Shown piece by piece: positions 25,669-45,379 of a stretch of 64,000 nucleotides of DNA. Made by a program: the position numbers and the translations under genes. The notes under the pieces are model-generated. The model saw only the letters and a program-made list of their open reading frames with translations. It did not search any database and was not told the origin of the DNA. The first letter of the stretch is position 1. Every line of letters starts with the position of its first letter. The DNA is from Bremerella sp. P1 (lineage in GTDB: Bacteria > Planctomycetota > Planctomycetia > Pirellulales > Pirellulaceae): NCBI RefSeq assembly GCF_028748185.1, contig NZ_CP118164.1:2480001-2544000 (forward strand). The letters run 5' to 3'.

Positions 25669-25709
25669 AAACCCTCACCCTGGCCCTCTCCCTGCGAAGG
25701 AGAGGGGAC
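25669..25709. repeat. Intact copy of the GTCCCCTC palindromic repeat
   Basis: On the minus strand it runs GTCCCCTCTCC, TTCGC loop, AGGGAGAGGG, then AGGGTGAGGGTTT. It is the intact counterpart of the copy interrupted by the insertion sequence at 44.4-45.4 kb, agreeing over nearly its whole length. Confidence 0.85.
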
Positions 25710-44359: not shown

Positions 44360-44367
44360 CGACTCAT

Positions 44368-44381
44368 GTCCCCTCCCTCGC
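44368..44381. repeat. Left half of a palindromic repeat interrupted by the insertion sequence
   Basis: GTCCCCTCCCT followed by the target copy CGC. Joined to 45355-45379 it rebuilds a 39-base palindromic repeat. Confidence 0.85.
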
Positions 44382-45351
44382 ACAACATTATTCACCAGCT
44401 AGCAATAAAAGGAGTTCACGTACTAGGCTAGGTAGTTGTGTACGAATTCCCAAATTGGGAGCCAAGCCATGGAACGTGAACTCTGGATTGCATTATACAA
44501 ATTGGCTCGCCAGTGCGACGCCAATCCCTGGTGGGCGATGACAAAGTTTTTTCGATTGGGAGATCGTGAGCGTCTACTTGTGGGCGGTTATTCACGATCG
44601 ACCAACCTGCTGGGCATGCGAGCCGGGCAACTGGCCTGACGATCTCAGGCCTCGGAAATTACCGTCTCAACCGACGATGAGCCGACGCTTGCCAACCACG
44701 GAAGTTCAGGCACTGCTCGCTCAAATGGAACGGTGCATGATCGCGGTGGACGATTTCGGTTTTGTCATGCTCGTTGATGGCAAGCCGCAAATGGTGAGTC
44801 ATTGCAGCAAGGATCCCGATGCCCGTTGGGGCCGCGCACGACGCGGCTACGGCAAGGGCTACAAGGTCCACGCGATCTACGGCTCGAGCAGCATGCCGCT
44901 GGCCTGGGATGTCGAACCGCTCAACGTGGCCGAAACGCCGGTTGCAGTTCGGCTTCTCCCGATCCTAGGGAGAGGCGGAGGCTATCTAGTGGCTGATCGT
45001 GGATACGACAGCAACCAGCTCCACGACGCGGCGATGGAAGCCGGTTATCAACTGGTGGCCGAAAAACTGCGACCAGGAAAAGGCTTGGGGCATTGCCGCC
45101 ACAGCCCAGGACGAATTCGCTGTTTCGCCCTACTAGAGCAGGAGTTCGGTCGCGCCCTAATACGGTTCCGGAACCAGGTCGAACGAAGATTCGCCTGGCT
45201 TGGCAATCACGCCGGAGGCCTCGAACCACTACCCAACTGGGCTCGACGAATACACCGCGTCCGCGAGTGGGTTCAAGCCAAACTTCTGATCCATGCCATG
45301 TACATGCTCCTCAACCTTCATCCTCCACCGCTAGCTGGTGAATAATGTTGT
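44382..45351 (+). mobile_element. IS5-superfamily-like insertion sequence, 970 bases
   Basis: Terminal inverted repeats are perfect over 22 bases: 44382-44403 (starting ACAACATTATTCACC) and 45330-45351. Both outer flanks carry CGC (44379-44381 and 45352-45354), a 3-base target-site duplication. The element encodes one DDE transposase, split by a frameshift. Intact ends and an exact target duplication point to a recent insertion. Confidence 0.93.
44469..45345 (+). pseudogene. DDE transposase (Transposase_11 type), one-base frameshift
   Basis: The N-terminal part reads MERELWIALYKLARQCDANP in one frame up to a run of six T at 44547-44552; the rest, from FDWEIVSVYLWAVIHDRPTC, is in the +1 frame. 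Removing one T gives a continuous frame of about 291 codons. Catalytic residues survive: Asp in FVMLVDGKP, Asp in LVADRGYDSNQ, Glu in RNQVERRFAWLG. GYKVHAI and LLIHAMYMLLNLH are further family blocks. It may be a mutation, a homopolymer sequencing error, or a site of transcriptional slippage. Confidence 0.85.
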
Positions 45352-45379
45352 CGCAGGGAGAGGGCTAGGGTGAGGGTTT
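45352..45379. repeat. Right half of the palindromic repeat interrupted by the insertion sequence
   Basis: CGC (target copy) then AGGGAGAGGGCTAGGGTG and AGGGTTT. It matches the intact repeat at 25669-25709 (minus strand) except for one base. Confidence 0.85.

Follow-up and report, generated by a model that had tools for sequence, protein, structure and literature searches.

An insertion sequence of planctomycetes located at the symmetry axis of REP-like palindromes, with relatives at the axes of other repeats in other hosts

The window, a stretch of 64,000 nucleotides from Bremerella sp. P1 (contig NZ_CP118164.1), contains an intergenic insertion sequence (IS) that interrupts a REP-like palindrome, the latter beginning 9 bases beyond the stop codon of a 374-aa ORF. 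The features of the locus are collected in Table 1. The genome, one contig of 6,955,728 bp, carries six copies of the IS at 100% identity, which spans 970 bases in five copies and 968 bases in one. A search for the IS ends that allowed up to 3 mismatches returned 12 ends in this genome, corresponding to the six copies, and no partial elements sharing them. The insertion sequence is recently active. Handles beginning with L and G denote loci and genomes, respectively.

Table 1. Features of the interrupted palindrome, the element within it, and an intact repeat in the same window
Feature	Position in window	Strand	Basis or remark
Insertion sequence, 968 bp	44383..45350	+	ends CAACATTATTCACCAGCTAGC and its inverse; six copies in the genome
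Left terminal inverted repeat (TIR), 21 bp, perfect	44383..44403	+	
Right TIR, 21 bp, perfect	45330..45350	-	
Left target-site duplication TCGCA, with the first-noted CGC inside	44378..44382	+	sequence; rule from six copies
Right target-site duplication TCGCA	45351..45355	+	sequence; rule from six copies
Transposase frame A (MERELW..TKFF..)	44469..44639	+	resembles N-terminus of single-ORF relatives up to the T6 run
Transposase frame B, DDE_Tnp_1 catalytic domain	44548..45345	+	Pfam PF01609, E 1.7e-15
T6 run joining frames A and B, putative programmed slippage site	44547..44552	+	identical in six copies
Left arm of interrupted REP, GTCCCCTCCC	44368..44377	+	orthologous repeat intact in two congeners
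Right arm and tail of interrupted REP, AGGGAGAGGGCTAGGGTGAGGG	45355..45376	+	first base common to the duplication
Intact REP of the same family	25672..25706 (about)	+	

The first-pass annotation described perfect 22-base inverted repeats bordered by a 3-base duplication, CGC. The sequence CGC is present on both sides, and the 22-base repeats hold for an element spanning 44382-45351, a length of 970 bp. Taking CAACATTA..TAATGTTG as the ends instead yields an element of 968 bp with 21-bp perfect TIRs and with perfect 5-bp direct repeats in 6/6 copies: TCGCA at L001 and L003, TTCAA at L002, TTCGA at L004, TGCGA at L005 and CATAG at L006, all of them centred on the palindrome axis. The outermost base pair outside CAAC..GTTG is A..T in five copies and G..C in L006. 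The 5-bp duplication is preferred because the 3-base reading requires two matching changes in L006, and an element of 968 bp with a 5-bp duplication is the best reading, in place of one of 970 bp with a duplication of 3 bp. A duplication is thus present as described, with CGC the middle of TCGCA, but its length is best read as 5 bp, and CGC is not its general sequence, since even under the 3-bp reading no more than two copies of six have it.

The transposase is split between two frames. The match of frame B to PF01609 exceeds the gathering score, and DDE_Tnp_1, of which Transposase_11 is an older name, was found in 8/8 group members at E<=0.01; it is also common to families other than IS5. By our reading, the conserved acidic residues fit a DDE enzyme. 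Those relatives with full-length ORFs that were read have a single frame with a MERELW-like start. Because six identical copies all carry the split, the T6 run is likely to be a functional signal for programmed slippage. The window transposase reached no NCBIfam cut-off; the nearest models were IS5_3 (NF033580; 42 bits against a cut-off of 110; 8/8 members at E<=0.01, best E 7e-12), IS1182 (40.8 bits against 270, over 89 residues) and IS982 (38.9 bits against 130; 8/8 members at E<=0.01, best E 5.4e-15). Comparison of profiles, the alignment against a fragment of L030, gave a probability of 100. The element is not of the IS3 family, which includes IS1397 and ISKpn1, but of the DDE_Tnp_1 type, and on these matches it is left as a group that appears to lie near IS5/IS982 and outside the curated NCBIfam families. 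In the IS982 family, most members are reported to have ends starting 5'-AC (57 of 69; PMC7335449). Under an 11-base rule the ends of the present group begin with CAAC, CAGG, GGAC, TAGG, GAGG and others, and with AC only in the 970-bp reading of the Bremerella IS.

Each of the six copies splits a REP-like palindrome of one kind at its centre, with one half in either flank, and the consensus compiled from these flanks is about CCCTCACCCTRRCCCTCTCCCTNNNAGGGAGAGGGGACAGGA. The REP at L006 is a variant with CCCCATAGGGG at the centre, and both orientations of the REP relative to the IS occur among the six copies. Consistent with the first-pass annotation, removal of the element rebuilds the repeat that is intact near 25672-25706, and the insertion lies at the axis in 6/6 copies; the two outcomes that it had named beforehand as contrary, non-palindromic sites and absence of a duplication, were found at none of the six. 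Scored against the other positions of its own flanks, about 2800 in number, every rebuilt site reached p<=0.0054, the control for axis insertion consisting of random positions only. Unrelated IS were sought as a further control by a scan for the DDE_Tnp_1 family alone, which returned the same six copies plus one weak match with TGA, and by self-comparison of the samples, which returned two repeated pairs, neither of them a usable IS. With up to 2 mismatches, the full palindrome pattern has 80 matches per strand in the 6.96-Mb genome (those listed being largely single sites counted on both strands), and the reversed pattern has 0. A one-arm pattern, with 44 + 48 matches versus 33 + 33 for the reversed control, is a poorer measure of REP abundance than the full palindrome. 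The chance of a random insertion within 3 positions of any of the ~86 loops is estimated at about 4e-5, and coincidence does not account for the axis position. As listed in this genome, REP arms often stand in inverted pairs with spacings of ~45 or 113 bp, in the manner of REP doublets (REPIN-like); REPs are treated in PMC3733652 and REPINs in PMC3116915. The genome has three Y1_Tnp genes, and CCCTC[AT]CC or GG[AT]GAGGG, looked for near them as a RAYT origin of the REP, had 0 matches in these loci of ~3.3 kb.

Orthologous sites were a further point that the first-pass annotation had proposed to check. In the search for empty sites and INDEPENDENCE, the right-hand 391-aa gene was found in 9/9 genus genomes, Bremerella sp. 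P1 included. The orthologous gap holds an intact REP without the IS in two of the eight congeners, G004 (TTGTCCCCTCTCCCTCGCAGGGAGAGGGCTAGGGTGAGGG) and G007 (CCTGTCCCCTCGCCCTCGCAGGGAGAGGGGACATG), the left arm reading CCCCTCCC in the window copy versus CCCCTCTCCC in G004; in the same gap of the other six, neither IS nor REP was seen. L001 and L005 have paralogous flanks, with identities on the two sides of 87% over 885 bp and 79% over 175. Their breakpoints coincide and the identical IS lies in opposite orientation, an arrangement best read as two separate insertions into one spot.

DNA searches detected no relative in the 8 other genus genomes and, in 240 family genomes with only 2 candidates scored per genome, gave three matches of 31-41 bases besides those in the Bremerella genome itself. 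At the protein level, 2 of the 240 other genomes from the family had relatives (E<=1e-15), as had 11 of 396 further genomes sampled from the class (E<=1e-25). When named genomes across all phyla were scanned from a pattern seed, an approach that would miss distant relatives, 39 loci came up, all titled as planctomycetes; no relatives were found in plasmids and viral contigs. Both flanks were available at 50 sites, which form the set counted below. Left out of it are L011, L020, L040 and L062 (contig end, right flank missing), L022 (the same site as L060) and L021, L023-L026, L039, L041 and L069 (no TIR given by the end-finding rule); L073 and L075 also have no TIR, and L028 and the short matches L007-L009 lie outside the analysis. 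The ends were placed by hand for the six Bremerella copies, L035 and L036, where the rule failed or, in L035, took an outer element, and also for L061, L065 and L067. L031 and L033 have a common right flank and are not fully independent.

At 27 of the 50 sites the rebuilt target is palindromic at p<0.01, and at 36 of 50 at p<0.05. Among the 14 that miss p<0.05, loose or bulged repeats are found at L012, L014, L019, L027, L031, L032, L033, L037, L059, L060 and L065. The first-pass suggestion of a palindrome habit like that of IS1397 and ISKpn1 thus stands for 6/6 copies of the IS itself and for many relatives, but not for L061, L067 and L068, at which no repeat or palindrome is visible. Direct repeats measure 5 bp at 8 of the 50 sites and 4 bp at 29, have one mismatch at 3, and are absent from 10 (L029, L035, L038, L042, L049, L061, L063, L068, L070 and L071); within multi-copy elements the duplication length is constant wherever it is clean. 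Seven of the 14 element types with a single site reach p<0.01, with a direct repeat in just two of these, L064 and L066, and in the five others some of the palindrome might belong to a longer element end. Many of the planctomycete relatives are shown to have inserted at the axis of differing repeats.

In Lacipirellula limnantheis I41, 18/18 IS copies lie at the centre of variants of CCCCNGGC-GGA-GCCNGGGG, some of which have one or two arm bases mismatched. This repeat has 258 + 266 matches on the two strands, some sites being counted on both, versus 6 + 8 in the control. Exact 4-bp duplications are present in 15 of the 18 copies (12 CGGA, 1 CGAA and 2 TCCG), CGGA and TCCG denoting one set of four bases in the repeat, read with the IS pointing one way or the other, and the duplications of L046 and L054 have one base different. 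L049 has the inverted half-sites TCCG / CGGA, as would be expected from recombination between oppositely oriented copies. The orientation of the IS relative to the REP is skewed in this genome 15 to 2, with one hybrid (L043-L058, L072 and L074).

Other hosts have other targets. The target in G037 is CCCTCGC-TTGC-GCTGCGGG, and those in G321 are GGAGC-TTGC-GCTCC, GACGC-GCAA-GCGTC, CCCTCGC-TTGC-GCTTCGGG and a weak GTGA site, so that one IS type occupies four sites of differing sequence, L030 and L034 among them. G383 has two element types. One lies in GGCGAGCC..GGCTCGCC repeats; the second is found at TTAGCCCCCGGT-CAATG-ACCGGGGGCTAA and at CCCCCTCCC..AAGGGGGAGGGG, the latter site being without a direct repeat and similar to the Bremerella REP, and again one type has palindromes of differing sequence, at L035 and L036. 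The Bremerella REP type is itself the target of L066, whose transposase is 41% identical to that of the window IS, and of L040 (47% identical), for which the left half and flank alone are available. The G383 element that is 69% identical to that of L040 sits in a C-rich palindrome of similar kind at L035 and in a dissimilar one at L036.

The abundance of these targets was counted in 400-kb samples from five hosts. Targets recurred 15 times in L. limnantheis and 14 times in G037, 6, 4 and 4 times for three targets of G383, and 5, 4 and 1 times for three targets of G321, with shuffled controls of 0 for the recurring targets of these four hosts. For L029 the full palindrome was found 0 times and its half-site 7 times (shuffled mean 0.1), and the L027 query of G321 and both L035 queries of G383 had 0 matches, likewise in 400-kb samples. 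A strict pattern of the Bremerella REP matched 0 times in its own sample and twice in G321, as against the 80 per strand given genome-wide by the looser pattern. The targets of each host were mostly missing from the other four hosts sampled; the exceptions were the L032 target of G321, found 15 times in G037, the L019 target of G383, found once in G321, and the L036 half-site, found once in G583. Among all palindromes in 464 kb of the Bremerella genome, the REP type accounts for 13 of 663 at score >=7, 8 of 245 at 8, 5 of 103 at 9 and 4 of 54 at 10; the corresponding shares in L. limnantheis, over 400 kb, are 17 of 867, 14 of 317, 1 of 125 and 0 of 52. These samples include palindromes in coding sequence, at which insertions may not persist, and the REPs in them were sorted by simple motifs.

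Taken together, the data make it probable, in our judgement, that a DDE transposase selects the REP's two-fold axis for insertion and reads the REP as a sequence-specific symmetric duplex. A transposase dimer, itself two-fold symmetric, would read the REP duplex through its two matching half-sites and would join the IS ends with a fixed stagger over the axis, of 5 bp in the Bremerella element and of 4 bp in most cleanly duplicated relatives. Each lineage seems to have become tuned to a repeat abundant in the host concerned, and such a repeat would provide many landing sites outside genes.

The main rival to duplex reading is structure-dependent targeting, in which an extruded cruciform or hairpin is recognised and its loop duplicated, the sequence of the stem being irrelevant, as in 'pathway c' of IS1272. 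This precedent (PMC5678879) gives recognition of structure some standing, the 4-5 bp duplications do cover the loop, and the occurrence of one IS type in palindromes of different sequence, in G383 (L035/L036) and in G321 (L030/L034), favours shape. A further point in favour is that transposases 41% (L066) and 47% (L040, left flank only) identical to that of the window IS share its REP type. However, REPs are a minor share of the strong palindromes sampled, yet they received 6/6 and 18/18 of the insertions in Bremerella and L. limnantheis, so that pure shape recognition must explain why insertion is confined to REPs; this share is a strong, though not a final, argument for sequence over pure shape. 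The length of the duplication is, moreover, set by the element and not by the loop, loops of 3 bases giving 5 bp in Bremerella and 4 bp in L. limnantheis, and its constancy fits a DDE enzyme that cuts duplex DNA with a fixed stagger over the axis. We regard recognition of a cruciform as unlikely.

Two further explanations are very improbable. If insertion were random and copies survived only in harmless REPs, an intergenic position such as that of the window copy would be expected, but selection of this kind does not account for a base-exact position in 6/6 copies and a single repeat axis in 18/18, and no copy was found elsewhere in the Bremerella genome. A guide RNA encoded by the element, as in IS110/IS1111, would accommodate the variation of targets among relatives, and the window IS does have a 9-base match to its own target (ranked 2nd of 18), with one of 10 in L037; across 18 elements, however, the longest match averages 7.39 for the own target versus 7.24 for the targets of others (maximum 11), and the transposase is DDE_Tnp_1. 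Guide-like complementarity between IS and target was accordingly rejected, there being no excess over these 18 elements. The palindrome arms and the TIRs together make one 34-base inverted repeat (88% complementary). That the arms belong to the element as long terminal repeats is possible locus by locus for the single-copy L038, L042, L063, L070 and L071, which have no direct repeat, but has next to no probability for the window IS, being contradicted by the intact empty sites in two congeners, by the 80 intact palindrome matches per strand and by the variation of loops and arms among copies of an identical IS.

REP-specific insertion has been reported in several IS families (Tobes and Pareja 2006, PMC1525189), and the REP-targeting of ISPsy8, ISRm22, IS1397 and ISKpn1 is known. 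As described there, ISPsy8 of P. syringae resembles the present element in that 5/5 copies lie in a REP at the symmetry axis of the hairpin, with a 3-bp direct repeat, and differs in belonging to another transposase family, IS3 (OrfA/OrfB, rve), and in being reported from one host. ISRm22 of S. meliloti, listed as IS4, is alike in the position of all copies at the axis of REP palindromy and in its Pfam domain, Transposase_11, and unlike in its 6-bp direct repeats and its S. meliloti REP (PMC1525189). IS1397 and ISKpn1, of the IS3 family, are likewise REP-specific but differ in transposase family and host, and ISPpu9, ISPpu10, ISPa11 and IS621, of the IS110 family, are REP-specific with another enzyme class (PMC1525189). 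Elements of the IS110 type are reported to be guided by their own RNA, in contrast to the present group, in which 18 elements gave no guide signal. IS1272, of the IS1182 family, also targets inverted repeats; Wan et al. (2017) describe it as replacing the stem-loop, with a loop-duplicating route predicted as an alternative (PMC5678879). Whereas IS1272 removes the stem-loop and makes no duplication, the present group keeps both arms and duplicates 4-5 bp at most sites, and replacement of the IS1272 type was not found in the Bremerella genome, where 6/6 copies have both arms and 5-bp repeats.

No report of this planctomycete IS group or of its targeting was found among the matches listed in the open-licence PMC literature. 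What is new is the transposase group outside the curated NCBIfam families, its recurrent insertion at an axis, and a repeat that differs between hosts. The published REP-targeting IS that we encountered were described host by host, while the present group is one natural series of related enzymes, with several host palindromes, base-exact insertion points and empty-site controls, by which the question of sequence or shape becomes directly testable for such enzymes. The group is a useful case of how a transposase locates the centre of a palindrome, and may aid site-directed insertion in bacteria with few genetic tools.

A more tentative proposal, to which we give somewhat less than even weight, is that the planctomycete lineage reads two-fold symmetry itself and is retargeted to whichever palindrome is abundant in the host, one fold thereby serving many REP families. 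This lead arises because enzymes 41-47% identical share a REP type and a pair 69% identical differs at L036. It is weakened because the L035 site resembles that of L040 and because many single-copy sites are without a direct repeat. In a transposase tree without G321, target type agrees only partially with the branching, as judged by inspection: L060, L011 (left flank only) and L014, which form one clade, have related CCCTCGC-type sites, as does L037 in another clade, and the window IS, L040 and L066 are not sisters.

One locus of G383 contains an element within an element. At L035 (1231-2358), a short element with type-A ends (CAGGATTATGC) contains a palindrome that is occupied by a type-B element, and this short element itself lies within a GGCGAGCC..GGCTCGCC repeat. 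The arrangement is a nested insertion, in which the short element is probably a MITE.
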